This document shows, piece by piece, positions 1 to 10,645 of a stretch of 15,363 nucleotides of DNA. Within the stretch, counting starts at the first letter, position 1, and each line of letters starts with the position of its first letter. The DNA lies in contig USPU01000015.1 of assembly GCA_900556745.1 (NCBI GenBank), positions 1 through 15,363 of the forward strand, in the 5' to 3' direction. Source of the stretch: an uncultured Veillonellaceae bacterium (GTDB taxonomy: Bacteria; Bacillota; Negativicutes; Veillonellales; Negativicoccaceae). Below the pieces are notes generated by a model. That model worked only from the letters and a program-made list of their open reading frames with translations. It was not told the DNA's origin and ran no database searches. The position numbers and the translations under genes were made by a program.

Positions 1-2012
1 CTCAAATTCCGCTGGATCTCCTGGCGGCCGGCGTTCACGTTATGGACGTCAACGAATTTGATCGCGACCTGTTCGGACGTCAGATCGAACAGGCGGCCAA
101 AGATTATGAAAAAGAAGTTTTACCCCCGTTCTTCCGTGAAATGACCGAATATGTGGGAAGCGGTAACATGACGCTGGCGACGCCGGGGCACCATGGCGGT
201 CAGTTCTTCCGTAAACATCCGGCCGGACGTGCCCTTTACGACTGGTTCGGTGAAAATATGTTTCGCTCCGATATGAGCTCGTCCGACGTACGCATGGGCG
301 ATCTTCTGATTCACGAAGGGGCGCCGGCGGAAGCGGAAAAACACGCGGCGAAAGTATTTAACGCCGACACGACTTACTTCGTCATGAACGGCACGTCGAC
401 GGCCAATAAAGTCGTCATCAACGCGCTCTTGCATCCGGGCGATGTCGTATTGTTCGACCGTAACAACCACAAATCCGTGCACCACGGCGCGTTGGTACAG
501 GTCGGCGCGAAACCGGTTTATTTGGAAACCGGACGCAACCCGTTCGGCTTTATCGGCGGCGTGGATGAACATTGCTTTGAAGAAGACTATCTGCGCGCGG
601 AAATCGCCAAAGTCGATCCGGAAAAAGCCAAGGCGAAACGCCCGTTCCGTTTGGCGTTGATCCAGCTCGGCACCTATGACGGCACGATTTATAACGCGCG
701 TCAGGTCATCGACCGCATCGGTCACCTGTGCGACTACATTCTTTTCGACTCCGCTTGGGTCGGTTATGAACAATTTATTCCGATGTTGCGCGACTGCAGC
801 CCGCTGCTTTTGGAACTCGGACCGGATGATCCGGGCGTCCTGGTCACGCAGTCGGTACATAAACAGCTCGCCGGCTTCTCGCAGGCCTCCCAAATTCATA
901 AAAAAGACAGTCACATTAAAGATCAGCCGCGGTACTGCAACGACGACTGCTTCAACAACGCATTTATGTTGCACGCGTCGACCTCGCCGTTCTACGCGAT
1001 TTTCGCCTCGCTGGACGTCAACGCGAAGATCCACGAAGGCAAAGCGGGCCGCAAATTGTGGGCCGATACCGTTAAACTCGGCATTGATATCCGCAAAGAA
1101 ATCATCAAAAACTGTCACTATTTCAAGCCGTTCATTCCGGAAACAATTGACGGCAAAGCGTGGAAAGATTACGACACCGATACCATCGCCAATGACGTCC
1201 GCTTCTTCCGCATGAACCCGAAAGACAGCTGGCACGGCTTTGAAGCGTACGGTGAAAATCAGTACGTCATTGATCCGTGCAAGTTGCTCCTCTATACGCC
1301 GGGCATCAATAAAAAAACGTGGGAATATGAAGACTTCGGTATTCCGGCGGGATTGCTTTCGAACTACCTGCGCGAACACGGCATGACACCGGAAAAGAGC
1401 GATTTGAACTCGATTCTCTTCCTGCTTACGCCGGCGGAAACCTATACGAAGATGCAGAACCTGATTTCACTCCTCGTGCGGTTTGAAACCTGTCTGGACG
1501 AAGATCTGCCGCTTTCGCAGGTATTGCCGAAGATTTATAAACAAAACGAAGCCCGTTACAAAGGCTACACCATTCGACAACTCTGCCAGGAAATGCACGA
1601 GTTCTACAAATCGCGCCGCGTCAACATTCTGCAGAAACGTTTGTTCCGCAAAGAATACCTGCCGGAAGTCGCGATGAGCGCGAAAGACGCGAACTATGAA
1701 TTCGTCGCGGGCAACTGGGAAAAAGTGACCCTCGATAAGATCAAAGGCCGCGTAGCTTTGGAAGGCGCGTTGCCGTACCCGCCGGGAATCATCACGATTG
1801 ATCCGGGCGAACGCTGGGGCGATACCGTCATCGAATATTTCCGTGCCTTGGAAGATACGATCAATCTGTTACCGGGATTTGCCGGTGAAATTCAGGGCGT
1901 GCACTTCGCTGAAATCGACGGTAAAACACGCGCGGTAGCGTATGTTTTGAAAGACGAAAGCGTCATTCAAAACGCGGATAGTAAAACGGCCGCGAAAAAG
2001 ACAAAAAAATAA
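1..2012 (+). CDS. speF: Ornithine decarboxylase, copy 1 (partial, 5' end outside window)
   Basis: PLP-dependent fold-I decarboxylase converting ornithine to putrescine and CO2 in the cytoplasm. The frame is open from base 3 and the protein aligns with the second copy upstream of the first ATG (base 42), so the gene enters from the left and most of its N-terminal wing domain is missing; ATG 42 is not the real start. Seen in the sequence: the PLP-lysine motif SVHK (Lys codon 861-863), the FDSAWVGYEQF stretch that contributes the PLP aspartate, HASTSPFY, and the C-terminal LPYPPG motif. The TQSVHK context matches SpeF-type ornithine decarboxylases rather than the STHK of CadA/LdcC. One odd block: bases 939-953 encode NDDCF where copy 2 has PHKRL. 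The C-terminus is lysine-rich. potE follows 40 bp downstream, as in a speF-potE operon. The family assignment is secure; exact substrate preference is inferred. Confidence 0.93.
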   Translation, partial: QIPLDLLAAGVHVMDVNEFDRDLFGRQIEQAAKDYEKEVLPPFFREMTEYVGSGNMTLATPGHHGGQFFRKHPAGRALYDWFGENMFRSDMSSSDVRMGDLLIHEGAPAEAEKHAAKVFNADTTYFVMNGTSTANKVVINALLHPGDVVLFDRNNHKSVHHGALVQVGAKPVYLETGRNPFGFIGGVDEHCFEEDYLRAEIAKVDPEKAKAKRPFRLALIQLGTYDGTIYNARQVIDRIGHLCDYILFDSAWVGYEQFIPMLRDCSPLLLELGPDDPGVLVTQSVHKQLAGFSQASQIHKKDSHIKDQPRYCNDDCFNNAFMLHASTSPFYAIFASLDVNAKIHEGKAGRKLWADTVKLGIDIRKEIIKNCHYFKPFIPETIDGKAWKDYDTDTIANDVRFFRMNPKDSWHGFEAYGENQYVIDPCKLLLYTPGINKKTWEYEDFGIPAGLLSNYLREHGMTPEKSDLNSILFLLTPAETYTKMQNLISLLVRFETCLDEDLPLSQVLPKIYKQNEARYKGYTIRQLCQEMHEFYKSRRVNILQKRLFRKEYLPEVAMSAKDANYEFVAGNWEKVTLDKIKGRVALEGALPYPPGIITIDPGERWGDTVIEYFRALEDTINLLPGFAGEIQGVHFAEIDGKTRAVAYVLKDESVIQNADSKTAAKKTKK

Positions 2013-6372: not shown

Positions 6373-6474
6373 GGAAAGATCGGGAATGTAAAAATAAAAT
6401 TATAAAAACATATAGATATATTAAAAATGTTTTTTGTGATTTTTAATACATCCGCTGAAAAATACCCGCCGAAC

Positions 6475-6496
6475 CTTGTATAAGACTTGTATAAGA
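6475..6496. repeat. Tandem direct repeat, 2 x 11 bp
   Basis: CTTGTATAAGA occurs twice with no gap (6475-6485 and 6486-6496). The 11-bp period puts both copies on one face of the helix, about 130 bases upstream of the promoter at 6629, as expected for cooperative regulator binding. No known operator is recognised. Confidence 0.6.
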
Positions 6497-6628
6497 GATG
6501 TTTTGAAGATTATAAAATAATTGTTGAGGTTGTTTGCAAAATTTAAAAATTATCAATAAACATTTCATTTAAAACCAAAATAAATCTGACCGATCTGTTT
6601 TGGGTGAAAATCTATGAATATTATGAAA

Positions 6629-6658
6629 TTGACAGCCTTTGAATCGGAGGAATATAAT
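6629..6658 (+). promoter_or_regulatory. Promoter of the speF copy 2 operon
   Basis: TTGACA (6629-6634), an 18-base spacer, and TATAAT (6653-6658): both hexamers are consensus. Transcription should start near 6665, leaving a leader of about 240 nt before the speF start at 6907. Confidence 0.8.
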
Positions 6659-6664
6659 GATGTT

Positions 6665-6906
6665 GAACAACGGGTGAAAGCCGCAAACACCCGTGTGGCA
6701 CGTAACGATGTTTTTTTATGCACCTTAGGTGGTCAGAATTGAATAATGAGCCGGGACAGAATCGCTCGACGATCTGCCGGGTGAATGCAAATCGCCGAGC
6801 GGGGAAACCGGTTCGGCAGGCTGATGTACATCATCGTTGTGCTAATGCCGTTTTTTTGTGGCTATGACATTTATTGTCTAAGTAAGAAGACTGGGAGGTC
6901 TTAATA
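6665..6906 (+). promoter_or_regulatory. Candidate attenuator/riboswitch leader of speF copy 2
   Basis: The non-coding leader opens with a 7-bp hairpin, ACGGGTG (6670-6676) with CACCCGT (6688-6694), followed by a T7 run at 6711-6717 and a small hairpin CACC/GGTG (6721-6731). The key feature is CGGCA at 6814-6818 (CGGCAG to 6819). It can pair upstream with CTGCCG (6774-6779), enclosing a GC-rich domain with a further hairpin (6800-6810), or downstream with TGCCG (6846-6850), which precedes seven T. These pairings are mutually exclusive, the layout of terminator/antiterminator switches. The ligand is unknown: ornithine, putrescine or pH would make biological sense. I could not match the domain to a known riboswitch class. 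No leader peptide is credible. Confidence 0.6.
6814..6857 (+). terminator. Conditional intrinsic terminator in the speF leader
   Basis: CGGCA (6814-6818) pairs with TGCCG (6846-6850). The stem can extend through GGC (6819-6821) with GCT (6841-6843) past an AA bulge, and an inner GATG/CATC helix (6823-6835) closes the loop. Seven T follow (6851-6857). It lies 50 bases before the speF start with no gene upstream, so it can only act on the leader transcript. Confidence 0.65.
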
Positions 6907-9099
6907 ATGAAGCATCTGAAAGTGGGTTACAGTCCGCTCGCAGAACAATACTTTGACTTGGCGATCGGCCGGGAAAAAGTTTGTCTCGACAATACGGACT
7001 TCACTGATGTTGCGGTAGCCGTTATTACGGATCAGGAAATGGACTACCTCGACAAAGTGAAAGAAACGGGATTCAATATTCCGGTGATCGCCGTATTGAC
7101 GGAAGGAAAAGCGCTCGACTTACAATACATGGGCCAAATTGACCATGTCATCGACGCGGCGAACACGGACACCAAACGCGGTTACTACAGCCGCCAGGTT
7201 GAACAGGCTGCAGCGGCGTACGAAGAAGACGTATTACCGCCTTTCTTCCGTTCGTTGGCTGACTATGTGGCAGCCGGCAAATCGCAGTTTGACTGCCCGG
7301 GCCATCAGGGTGGTATGTTCTACCGTAAAATGCCCGCAGGCCGTGCTTTCTTTGATTTCTTTGGCGAAAACGTATTCCGCGCCGACCTTTGCAACGCCGA
7401 CGTTAAGTTGGGCGACCTCTTGATTCATGAAGGTCCGGCTTTGGATGCGCAGCAGCACGCAGCGCAGGTCTACAATGCGGACAAAACGTACTTCGTTTTG
7501 AACGGTACGTCGTCCTCCAATAAAGTCGTATTGAACGCTTTGCTCGCCCCCGGCGACTTGGTTCTCTATGACCGCAACAACCACAAATCGATTAACCACG
7601 GCGCTTTGGTTCAGGCCGGCGCGACTCCGGTATACCTGGAAACCGCTCGTAACCCGTTCGGTTTCATCGGCGGTATTCTGGAAGGCTGCTTCGATGAAAA
7701 GAAACTCCGCGAACTCGCTGCCGAAATGGACCCGAAAAAAGCGAAAGAAACACGCCCGTTCCGTCTGGCGGTGATCCAGCTCGGCACCTATGACGGCACG
7801 ATCTACAACGCGAAACAGGTCATTGAAAAGATCGGTCCCCTCTGCGACTACATTCTCTTTGACTCCGCTTGGGTAGGTTATGAACAGTTCATTCCGATGA
7901 TGCGCGACTGCAGTCCGATGCTCTTGGAACTCGGTCCGGATGATCCGGGTATCTTCGTAACCCAATCTGTCCACAAACAACAGGCCGGCTTCTCGCAGAC
8001 CTCGCAGATCCACAAAAAAGACAGCCATATCAAAGGTCAGGATCGTTACTGCCCGCATAAACGCTTGAACAACGCGTTCATGATGCACGCCTCGACCTCG
8101 CCGTTCTATCCGATGTTCGCGTCCTTGGACGTCAACGCGAAAATGGCTGACGGCGAAGCAGGCAAACGTCTTTGGGTCGAAGCCGTTAAACTCGGTATCG
8201 AAACCCGTAAAGCGATTTTACGCAGCTGCAAAATGATCAAACCGTTCGTTCCGCCGACAGTCAACGGCAAACCGTGGGAAGACGGCGACACCGAAGACAT
8301 GGCGAACAACCTGGACTACTTCCGTTTCGTTCCGGGGGAACGTTGGCACTCCTTCGACGGTTACGGCAAAGGCCAGTACTTCGTCGATCCGATGAAACTG
8401 CAGTTGACCACGCCGGGTATTAACGCGGAAGACGGCACCTATGAAGACTTCGGTATTCATGCCAACATTCTCGCGAACTACCTCCGTGAAAACAACATCA
8501 TTCCGGAAAAATGCGACTTGAACTCGATTCTGTTCCTCTTGACGCCGGCGGAAACGCAGACCAAAATGCAGAACCTCGTAGCGCAAATCGCTCGCTTCGA
8601 ACGCTTGATCGAAGAAGATGCGCCGATGCAGGATGTATTGCCGACCATCTACTACAACAATATCGACAAATACAAAGGTTACACGATTCGTCGTCTCTGC
8701 CAGGAAATGCAGGACTTCTACAAAGAACGTAACGTGAAAGAACTGCAGAAACGTTTGTTCCTGAAAGACTACTTCCCGGAATATGTCAATACGCCGTATA
8801 AAGCGAACCTCGAATTCGTTCGCAACCATGGTGAATTGGTACCGGTTGACGAAATCGAAGGCCGCATCGCCCTTGAAGGTGCGTTGCCGTACCCGCCGGG
8901 AGTTCTGACGGTCGTTCCGGGTGAACGCTGGAGCGCTACCGCGCAGAAATACTTCCTCGCGCTGAACGAAGGCATCAACCAGTTGCCGGGCTTCGCGCCG
9001 GAAATCCAGGGCGTATACCTGGAAACCGAAGACGGTAAGAAACGTGCTTACGGTTATGTATTGAAGAAAGAATACGAAGAAGAATTCGCGAAAGCGTAA
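6907..9099 (+). CDS. speF: Ornithine decarboxylase, copy 2 (inducible/degradative type)
   Basis: Complete PLP-dependent ornithine decarboxylase of 730 aa, close to the 732 aa of E. coli SpeF. Domains: N-terminal wing (about 1-110), PLP-binding large domain with the substrate-pocket block HQGGMFYRKMPAG (133-145), ILFDSAWVGYEQF (PLP Asp near 319), Schiff-base lysine K357 in TQSVHK, CPHKRLNNAFMMHASTSPFY, then the C-terminal domain with DFGIHANIL, CDLNSILFLLTPAE and LPYPPGVLTVVPGERW. These blocks follow E. coli SpeF closely. It makes putrescine from ornithine, consuming a cytoplasmic proton. ATG 6907 follows GGGAGGT at the expected spacing. Codon use is strongly biased (cgt, ggt, ttc, aaa), suggesting high expression. 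It is preceded by a promoter and attenuator-like leader and followed by potE after 97 bases containing a long stem-loop. Confidence 0.97.
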   Translation: MKHLKVGYSPLAEQYFDLAIGREKVCLDNTDFTDVAVAVITDQEMDYLDKVKETGFNIPVIAVLTEGKALDLQYMGQIDHVIDAANTDTKRGYYSRQVEQAAAAYEEDVLPPFFRSLADYVAAGKSQFDCPGHQGGMFYRKMPAGRAFFDFFGENVFRADLCNADVKLGDLLIHEGPALDAQQHAAQVYNADKTYFVLNGTSSSNKVVLNALLAPGDLVLYDRNNHKSINHGALVQAGATPVYLETARNPFGFIGGILEGCFDEKKLRELAAEMDPKKAKETRPFRLAVIQLGTYDGTIYNAKQVIEKIGPLCDYILFDSAWVGYEQFIPMMRDCSPMLLELGPDDPGIFVTQSVHKQQAGFSQTSQIHKKDSHIKGQDRYCPHKRLNNAFMMHASTSPFYPMFASLDVNAKMADGEAGKRLWVEAVKLGIETRKAILRSCKMIKPFVPPTVNGKPWEDGDTEDMANNLDYFRFVPGERWHSFDGYGKGQYFVDPMKLQLTTPGINAEDGTYEDFGIHANILANYLRENNIIPEKCDLNSILFLLTPAETQTKMQNLVAQIARFERLIEEDAPMQDVLPTIYYNNIDKYKGYTIRRLCQEMQDFYKERNVKELQKRLFLKDYFPEYVNTPYKANLEFVRNHGELVPVDEIEGRIALEGALPYPPGVLTVVPGERWSATAQKYFLALNEGINQLPGFAPEIQGVYLETEDGKKRAYGYVLKKEYEEEFAKA

Positions 9100-9196: not shown

Positions 9197-10645
9197 ATGG
9201 CAGATGGCTCACAAAATAAGATGAGCGTTGTCCAGCTGACAATTTTGACAGCTGTCAACATGATGGGGTCCGGTATTATTATGTTACCGACCAAGCTTGC
9301 GCAAGTAGGCACCATGTCCATTTTGAGCTGGGTCGTGACAGCGGTCGGTTCGATGTGCTTGGCGTATGCGTTTGCTAAATGTGGTATGTACACCCGCCGT
9401 GGCGGCGGTATGGGCGGCTACGCTGAATATACGTTCGGCAAAGCCGGTTCCTTTATGGCGAACTACACTTACGGTGTATCGCTCTTGATTGCCAACATCG
9501 CGATTGCGATTTCGGCCGTTGGTTACGCGCAGGAATTTATGGAAGTGCAGTTGTCTTCCGTAGCCGTTGGCATGTGGACGATCGCAACACTTTGGTTGGC
9601 GACAGTCATGAACTTCGGCGGTGCGAAATACACCGGGCGAGTTTCTTCGGTTACCGTTTGGGGCGTTATTATCCCGGTACTCGGCATTTCCGTTCTCGGT
9701 TGGTTCTGGTTCAACCCGTCGACCTATACGGAAGCTTGGAACCCGCACAACGTGCAATTCTTTGATGGTTTAACACAGTCGATCGCGATGACATTGTGGG
9801 CCTTCCTCGGCATGGAATCGGCAAGCGCCAACTCCGAAGCCGTTGAAAACCCGGAAAAGAACGTGCCAATCGCTTGCTTAGGCGGTACGTTGGGCGCAGC
9901 TATCATTTACATCTTGTCCACCAACGTTATGGCCGGTATCGTTCCGAACGCGGAACTTGCGATGTCTTCGGCGCCGTTCGGCTTGGCATTCGCGACGATG
10001 TTCACCCCGACAGTAGGTAAAATCGTCATGGGTCTCATGGTAATGTCTTGTTTCGGTTCGCTCTTGGGTTGGCAGTTCACGATCGCTCAGGTATTCAAAA
10101 CCTCGTCGGACGAAGGCTACTTCCCGAAACTGTTCAGCAAAGTTACTTCCTATGGCGCACCGATCGTCGGCATGATCACGATCACCGTCATTCAGTCGCT
10201 CCTGTCGTTAATGACGATCAGCGACGCGCTGTATGAACAGTTTGAAACGCTGGTTAACTTGGCGGTTGTTACGAACATCATCCCGTACCTGCTCTCGATG
10301 GCGGCTCTGGTCGTTATTCAGAAAGCGGCGGGTCATTACAGCGGAACGACCACCTTCATCGCGCTCCTTGGTTCGTTGTACAGCTTCTATGCGCTGTATT
10401 CTTCGGGCTTCGACTCGATGACTTACGGTTCGCTCGTTACCTTCTTCGGTTGGACGCTCTACGGTTTCGTTTCGGAACGTTTCGACCTGATGGATTCCAT
10501 TTACTGGAACCGTGAAGAAGATAAACGCACGGGCCGTGTCGATGAGGACGCGCAGAAACTCTACGCGGCGCACCAAGCCAAATTGGATAGCGAAGCGCAT
10601 GTATCGCATGAATATGATCCGGCGATGAAAAGCGAAACTAAATAA
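9197..10645 (+). CDS. potE: Putrescine:ornithine antiporter, copy 2
   Basis: APC-superfamily antiporter, about 12 transmembrane helices, 482 aa. It resembles E. coli PotE more closely than copy 1 does: MSVVQLTILTAVNMMGSGIIMLPTKLA, KCGMYTRRGGGMGGYAEYTFGKAGSF, WAFLGMESASANSE, SCFGSLLGWQFTIAQVFK. Cys62, Trp201 and Glu207, functionally important in E. coli PotE, fall at the same numbers. A hydrophilic C-terminal tail of about 40 residues after SERFDLMDS (charged, with two His) exceeds the usual length and is absent from copy 1; it is probably cytoplasmic. GGAGAG lies 11-16 bases before the ATG, a slightly long spacing. Partner of the speF just upstream: it imports ornithine and exports putrescine. 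An intrinsic terminator follows 9 bases after the stop, so the operon has two genes. Confidence 0.96.
   Translation: MADGSQNKMSVVQLTILTAVNMMGSGIIMLPTKLAQVGTMSILSWVVTAVGSMCLAYAFAKCGMYTRRGGGMGGYAEYTFGKAGSFMANYTYGVSLLIANIAIAISAVGYAQEFMEVQLSSVAVGMWTIATLWLATVMNFGGAKYTGRVSSVTVWGVIIPVLGISVLGWFWFNPSTYTEAWNPHNVQFFDGLTQSIAMTLWAFLGMESASANSEAVENPEKNVPIACLGGTLGAAIIYILSTNVMAGIVPNAELAMSSAPFGLAFATMFTPTVGKIVMGLMVMSCFGSLLGWQFTIAQVFKTSSDEGYFPKLFSKVTSYGAPIVGMITITVIQSLLSLMTISDALYEQFETLVNLAVVTNIIPYLLSMAALVVIQKAAGHYSGTTTFIALLGSLYSFYALYSSGFDSMTYGSLVTFFGWTLYGFVSERFDLMDSIYWNREEDKRTGRVDEDAQKLYAAHQAKLDSEAHVSHEYDPAMKSETK

Follow-up and report, generated by a model that had tools for sequence, protein, structure and literature searches.

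Genes of the locus and genomes compared

The window, by which we mean the whole stretch of 15,363 nucleotides analysed here, comes from a human-associated anaerobe, an uncultured Veillonellaceae bacterium, and contains two pairs of an ornithine decarboxylase and an antiporter gene with a LysR-type regulator and lysS lying between them. The second pair is the speF-potE operon, and it is preceded by the leader of about 240 nucleotides studied here.

6907..9099, + strand: speF, inducible ornithine decarboxylase (NF010092, 1250.8 bits; cut-off 794)
9197..10645, + strand: potE, putrescine-ornithine antiporter (TIGR04299, 739.7 bits; cut-off 560)

With 1299.8 bits SpeF narrowly missed the cut-off of 1310 of a further model, TIGR04301. 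The first decarboxylase gene (window positions 42-2012) is probably truncated by the start of the window; the corresponding gene of the relatives aligns from residue 5 of SpeF, and the reading frame in the window begins at a later ATG. Inducible ornithine decarboxylases synthesize putrescine and aid in acid resistance. In the open-licence literature, searched for speF together with Negativicutes, the control of this enzyme in the class seems little described.

Four genomes of the family (G001-G004) served for comparison. Closest to the window among the four, and of one genus with it, are G001, with 53% of 31-letter words shared, and G002, which is Negativicoccus massiliensis (LT700188.1). G004 belongs to a different genus of the same family; its SpeF is 89% identical, and its leader cannot be aligned. 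The alignable leaders are therefore three, those of the window, G001 and N. massiliensis.

Promoter and distribution of the leader

6629..6658, + strand: promoter, -35 box TTGACA at 6629-6634, 18-nt spacer, -10 box TATAAT at 6653-6658

The two promoter hexamers match the consensus in 12 of 12 letters, and both are conserved together with the 18-nt spacer in G001 and N. massiliensis, the 30 nucleotides as a whole being identical at 20 and 24 positions, respectively. The same hexamers precede the otherwise different leader of G004. Five sites with at least 9 of 12 matching letters occur in the 1-kb region as compared to a mean of 3.2 in shuffled sequences, a figure which refers to this class and not to the 12/12 class. 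The consensus sigma-70 promoter and the leader of about 240 nucleotides proposed in the initial annotation agree with the sequence. Transcription would begin near position 6665. On the + strand the promoter scan listed no promoter-like site between the T run described below and speF.

A DNA search with the leader yielded one significant match each in G001 (94% identical) and N. massiliensis (81% identical), in both cases before speF; G003 and G004 gave matches with E values of 0.138 or worse only. Second copies of the leader were not found in the four family genomes, where the best DNA match beyond the two speF sites had an E value of 0.138, and covariance models yielded only further candidates at E 0.12 or worse. 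A covariance model of positions 6728-6828 was run on 61 genomes of the order, under strict filters and with a limited number of candidates scored per genome. It was significant in G001 and N. massiliensis only; matches at E<=1 were obtained in five genomes, three of which got no better than E 0.166. Under the same settings a model of positions 6665-6865, run on 200 genomes of the class, was significant in G001 and N. massiliensis only, four other genomes reaching E 0.16 to 0.34. As judged from these comparisons, the leader is specific to its lineage; it has a consensus promoter, and its ends are conserved.

The comparison with Rfam which had been proposed along with the initial annotation assigned the leader to no known family: no match was obtained at E<=1, and the two matches at E<=10 (E 5.8 and 8.8) are unrelated. 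The speF loci of N. massiliensis (L157), G001 (L158) and G004 (L161) had no match at E<=1 either, and a known RNA family was ruled out for the leader on these results. The succession GATCTG..GGATAA..AGGGAA in N. massiliensis may resemble the TPP riboswitch, a likeness which is backed by no Rfam match.

Conservation of the leader

The fourfold degenerate sites of speF, which were used as silent background, are identical at 271 of 313 positions to N. massiliensis and at 285 of 314 to G001. The whole leader lies below this background with respect to N. massiliensis (195/242) and above it with respect to G001 (229/242). The spacer from 6401 to 6600 upstream of the promoter is identical at 163 of 200 positions to N. 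massiliensis and at 123 of 200 to G001, so that for G001 the identity of the leader far exceeds that of the spacer. Compared to N. massiliensis conservation is uneven, ranging from 53% to 97% by block. The best-kept blocks lie at both ends of the leader (29/30 at 6671-6700 and 64/69 at 6838-6906), and the blocks 6701-6730 (16/30) and 6821-6837 (9/17) are poorly kept. Measured against the fourfold sites the leader is kept, and its middle is not outstanding.

A metabolite aptamer is normally the best-conserved part of a leader. Region 6731-6820, which includes what had been described as a compact, GC-rich, aptamer-like domain (6745-6820), is identical to N. massiliensis at 71 of 90 positions (18/26, 21/24 and 32/40 by block) and to G001 at 84 of 90. 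It does not clearly surpass the silent sites in either comparison and was not found in G004, neither of which is in keeping with such a domain.

Within the window, 6822-6833 is a perfect 12-base palindrome (TGATGTACATCA), which is also present in G001; the corresponding stretch of N. massiliensis is changed and retains a palindrome, GATGCATC.

Predicted folds

All folds described here are computational predictions. The following elements were predicted for the leader:

6671..6693, + strand: 5' hairpin, stem 6671-6676/6688-6693, 11-nt loop 6677-6687 (AAAGCCGCAAA)
6694..6699, + strand: TGTGGC, local competitor for loop positions 6680-6685, 6 pairs, invariant in the three alignable leaders
6696..6710, + strand: long-range stem, 5' strand (6696-6702 and 6705-6710), pairing with 6838-6844 and 6832-6837 in the window ground state and in RNAalifold
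6832..6844, + strand: long-range stem, 3' strand, overlapping the 3' half of the terminator-like element
6732..6736, + strand: junction-closing stem, GUCAG with CUGAU at 6821-6825, invariant in the three
6757..6776, + strand: hairpin P2, CAGA-A-UCG / CGAUCUG, stem invariant in the three, loop variable
6794..6817, + strand: hairpin P3, GCCGAGC 6794-6800 / GUUCGGC 6811-6817, overlapping the CGGCA of the terminator-like element
6866..6878, + strand: small hairpin GACA/UGUC, invariant in the three, found in the 3'-region folds of window, G001 and N. massiliensis
6887..6902, + strand: Shine-Dalgarno hairpin AAGACU-GGGA-GGUCUU, paired in all three, with one A-U to G-U change

For window positions 6665-6857 the predicted ground state, at -63.4 kcal/mol, has the form of a three-way junction which the long-range stem closes. 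This stem overlaps the 3' arm of the terminator-like element described in the next section, and P3 overlaps its 5' arm. The stability of the fold is ordinary in the window (z -1.32; 20 of 200 shuffled sequences as good) and in the N. massiliensis leader up to the end of the T run (z -0.86; 41 of 200). The G004 leader folds markedly better (z -3.68), none of 200 shuffles being as good.

The alignment of three sequences yielded, with RNAalifold, a structure with the clamp described below, the long-range stem, P2 and P3, in which 4 of 64 pairs are changed on both sides. In the structure proposed here one pair is changed on both sides, and 355 of 500 letter shuffles reach this level of covariation. 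The ground states of the single sequences disagree: that of G001 is without the 5' hairpin and the long-range stem and retains a terminator-like GGC/GCC stem beside P3, and that of N. massiliensis has the long-range stem and is without P3. The 5' hairpin can pair in all three leaders, with two one-sided changes, and the same holds for strand 6696-6702 of the long-range stem, again with two one-sided changes. In P3 one C-G pair has become U-A in G001, and two pairs are lost in N. massiliensis. The Shine-Dalgarno hairpin is found again in G004.

Exchanging the strands of the long-range stem between the leaders gave mixed evidence. The N. massiliensis strand paired at -29.1 with its own partner and at -20.6 with the window strand, and 9 of 2000 shuffles were as good. 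No support came from the window (own -19.4, swapped -20.0; 198 of 2000 shuffles as good) or from G001 (own -21.0, swapped -24.5; 213 of 2000).

The terminator-like element

6814..6857, + strand: terminator-like element, CGGCA 6814-6818 / TGCCG 6846-6850, followed by T7 at 6851-6857

The initial annotation had proposed that CGGCAG at 6814-6819 pairs either with CTGCCG at 6774-6779, as an antiterminator, or through its first five bases with TGCCG at 6846-6850, as an intrinsic terminator. These motifs and the seven T at 6851-6857 are placed as described, and the T run lies 50 bases before speF. A weaker alternative stem, GGC 6819-6821 / GCC 6847-6849, is compatible with P3. N. massiliensis has CGACAG in place of CGGCAG with both partners unchanged, so that each of the two pairings contains one A·C mismatch without compensation there. 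Covariation of the alternative stems, which had been expected among relatives, is thus absent from the three sequences: each pairing is broken at one pair in one of the three, and no pair of either is changed on both sides.

In favour of the terminator part of the proposal, T7 is invariant in the three alignable leaders and folds which exclude each other around the T run are predicted in the window and likewise in G004; against it speak the mismatched stem of N. massiliensis and the fact that a simple terminator scan did not list the site 6846-6857. When the last 60 nucleotides are folded, the best structure (-16.7) contains the CGGCA/TGCCG stem. Forcing the terminator fold onto window positions 6665-6857 gave -58.0 kcal/mol as compared to -63.4 for the ground state, a cost of 5.4 kcal/mol. 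Structures which close immediately ahead of the T run were also compared to shuffled sequences by their best representative; 1 of 60 shuffles was as good in the window and likewise 1 of 60 in G001, the winning structure in both being a branched fold with P3 and not the CGGCA/TGCCG hairpin; in N. massiliensis 55 and in G004 25 of 60 shuffles were as good, and the stability of the terminator is not conserved. The CTGCCG/CGGCAG pairing found no support as antiterminator: forcing it onto the window leader costs 8.1 kcal/mol relative to the predicted ground state, and its mismatch in N. massiliensis is uncompensated.

Of the upstream hairpin and T7 run which had been noted at 6670-6717, all three leaders are able to form the hairpin at 6671-6693; the T run at 6711-6717 is not kept, N. 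massiliensis having GCGTTTT at this site. The sequence TTTTTGTGGC was considered as a leader-specific tag and discarded, as it also occurs after other terminator-like hairpins; in G003 it follows, by eye, an apparent tRNA 3' end.

A possible long-range clamp

6679..6687, + strand: candidate clamp, 5' strand AGCCGCAAA, in the loop of the 5' hairpin, 9 pairs with 6855-6863
6855..6863, + strand: candidate clamp, 3' strand TTTGTGGCT, end of the T run plus GTGGCT, invariant in the three

The loop of the 5' hairpin has a nine-base complementarity to UUUGUGGCU, the end of the T run with the bases next to it, and this is the best partner of the loop in the leaders of the window and of N. massiliensis. 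In the RNAalifold structure the clamp is the outermost helix, and the 5' hairpin is opened for it. For the full leader the clamp fold was calculated, without pseudoknots, at -75.1 as compared to -76.3 for the ground state, 1.2 kcal/mol above it; for a window transcript ending at 6870 it is the ground state itself. The energy of the window clamp was matched by 16 of 5000 shuffled loops, and a run of at least nine pairs was reached by 366 of 5000.

G004 has a 5' hairpin with a stem different from that in Negativicoccus, the loop of which (GATGCCATGAAA) is complementary over ten bases to UUUUGUGGCA, its best partner, again a U run followed by GUGGC. This element lies 44 nt before the start codon in G004 and 43-44 nt in Negativicoccus. 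In G004 15 of 5000 shuffled loops matched the energy and 263 of 5000 gave a run of at least nine pairs. Compared by eye between G004 and Negativicoccus, the clamp pairs show one both-sided change (A-U to U-A) and three one-sided changes, and none is lost. When 100 distinct decarboxylase upstream regions were searched for a T run that has a GTGGC-like end and lies no more than 160 nt before the gene, only G001, N. massiliensis and G004 were hit. The frame common to both genera thus consists of the promoter, the 5' hairpin, the U run with GUGGC, and the Shine-Dalgarno hairpin. The middle of the G004 leader (L053) is predicted to form a single long hairpin, and between this and the U run two folds which exclude each other (-16.0 and -14.4) are predicted.

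Pairing of this length also occurs elsewhere: of the 25 rows with at least nine loop-to-downstream pairs in the scan, 16 came from ten other leaders, and some of the remaining rows are further loops within the same leaders which fit the T run with 9-10 pairs. For the GUGGC strand of G004 local pairing with GCUGCAAG is predicted. The argument for the clamp rests on its position and its recurrence in a second genus and not on the length of the run. A local H-type pseudoknot, GCCGCA/TGTGGC, is possible in the genus; it was rejected as conserved core, as no equivalent was seen by eye in G004.

Interpretation

The explanation which we regard as the best one, plausible at modest odds, is that the structured mRNA leader acts as a fold-based attenuator of speF-potE, perhaps locked by the clamp. 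Following transcription from near 6665, the three-way junction with P2 and P3, closed by the long-range stem, would connect the beginning of the leader with the 3' half of the terminator-like element. This closed fold would exclude the terminator and lead to read-through, which sets the presumed direction of control; when it is absent, a hairpin before T7, either CGGCA/TGCCG or the weaker GGC/GCC, would be used as terminator and end transcription. Switching between the two forms would respond to some presumed signal, which may be a metabolite, pH, a protein or translation. Once the polymerase has read through, the first hairpin may use its loop to bind the U run together with GUGGC, which would lock the closed form. 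The clamp cannot itself prevent intrinsic termination, because it can form only when the U run has already emerged from the polymerase.

The frame shared with G004, consisting of 5' hairpin, U run with GUGGC, and Shine-Dalgarno hairpin, would also suit a post-transcriptional element, in which the T run serves as a pairing strand instead of a functional terminator and the fold-back together with the Shine-Dalgarno hairpin sets speF translation or mRNA stability. The terminator stability, which is not conserved, points in the same direction, as does the ring-like fold which is reported to promote mRNA decay in the speF leader of Salmonella (PMC6386406). However, all seven T are kept in the three alignable leaders, of which the clamp requires only three; the limits of the clamp evidence, namely the shuffles, the other loops and the local competitor, apply here too; and the Shine-Dalgarno hairpin contributes no covariation because it hardly varies. 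We consider this element possible, if rather unlikely. That the leader is an ordinary 5' untranslated region, or carries an unrelated small RNA ending at the T run, with speF unregulated, we consider unlikely. It would account for the identity to N. massiliensis below that of silent sites, for the ordinary folding, and for structure counts which do not beat shuffles, but it would leave unexplained why the identity to G001 exceeds both silent sites and spacer, why conservation with respect to N. massiliensis is so uneven, and why the frame recurs in the sister genus; moreover, speF has no listed promoter-like site of its own behind the T run.

An RNA-only riboswitch for a metabolite or pH, with its aptamer in 6731-6820, had been suggested by the initial annotation, which named ornithine, putrescine or pH as candidates; to these signals only the function of the operon itself points, and the suggestion found no support. 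A predicted three-way junction with invariant stretches in front of a metabolic operon would be in line with it, but since no known family matched, a new class would be needed. The conservation of the region without clear excess over silent sites, the folding of the leader no better than that of shuffles, the absence of the region from the matches in G004, and covariance matches which, under strict filters and with a limited number of candidates scored, were significant in just 2 of the 61 order genomes and 2 of the 200 class genomes make it quite improbable. Attenuation by a leader peptide as in speFL/orf34, encoded by a small reading frame in the leader, is given very little credit. An open frame of 42 codons (6614-6742) spans the promoter, but it starts upstream of the -35 box. 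The three alignable leaders share a GTG at position 29, the Shine-Dalgarno score of which is weak (-4.1), but it opens frames of 11, 69 and 30 codons and is absent from G004; differences from N. massiliensis are spread evenly over codon positions (16, 13, 13). No start codon with a Shine-Dalgarno-like site is common to all four leaders, which agrees with the earlier view that no credible leader peptide exists here.

The possible clamp is the part of the leader most worth testing. It is conceivable, if improbable, that the leader represents a new kind, the conserved core of which would be a long-range clamp and not an aptamer: the loop of the first hairpin would pair with the U run of the terminator and the bases following it, and the middle, a three-way junction in one genus and a long hairpin in G004, would have been swapped wholesale between genera, the clamp and the Shine-Dalgarno hairpin staying in place. 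If real, the clamp would mean that the U run of a leader has a further function through base pairing, and comparing sister leaders which differ in their middle domains would be a natural test of the part which senses the signal.

Relation to known systems and other leaders

Control of speF in Salmonella involves a translated reading frame, Rho, and the ring-like leader fold promoting decay (PMC6386406). The leader studied here resembles that of speFL/orf34 in being long, structured and located before the same operon, where premature termination and alternative folds occur as well. In that system a translated frame of 34 residues and Rho are central, and its authors report no Rho-independent terminator (PMC6386406), whereas the window leader has no upstream reading frame common to all leaders and carries a site resembling an intrinsic terminator. 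A fold-back speF leader would thus have its precedent in Salmonella by analogy only.

The odc1 motif of alpha-proteobacteria, likewise an ornithine decarboxylase leader, shares a structured leader, a pseudoknot near the 5' end and a ribosome site in a stem (PMC8632094). It has two adjacent UUG starts and an upstream frame of 11 residues (PMC8632094), whereas the window leader is longer and has an ATG start and a U run; two UUG starts two nucleotides apart were not found at speF, the ATG of which is preceded by AATA. The potE motif (WRC-18-1), a structured-RNA candidate of the same class and pathway, lies before potE and is reported only from Veillonella and environmental samples (PMC8632094), the comparison being by description only. 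The spermidine riboswitch, a SAM-I variant, is a regulatory leader linked to polyamines as well (PMC10853860); the window leader has no SAM-I or other Rfam match.

In other decarboxylase leaders of Negativicutes a hairpin was observed 44-58 nt before the start codon, the loop of which contains a self-complementary hexamer (GUGCAC, GCGCGC/CGCGCG, UCGCGA or GUCGAC):

L014, L015, L017, L020, L027, L065, L067, L071, L072 (the same locus as L178) and L186: palindromic-loop hairpin
L051, L052 and L053: palindromic-loop hairpin before the first decarboxylase of G001, N. massiliensis and G004

By criteria fixed after the first cases had been seen, 14 of 54 Negativicutes leaders, two of them one locus read twice, contain this hairpin as compared to 1 of 59 from other groups; 40 shuffled sets gave a mean of 1.2 and a maximum of 3. 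The stems are not the same in all leaders and contain, by eye, G-U pairs, so that an RNA hairpin capable of loop-to-loop contact is possible. In L186 the sequence AAACGTGAG is seen by eye at two places, one close to the 5' end of the leader and the other within the 3' arm of the palindromic-loop hairpin, and the two might compete for a common partner; by eye, L027 resembles L186 in this.
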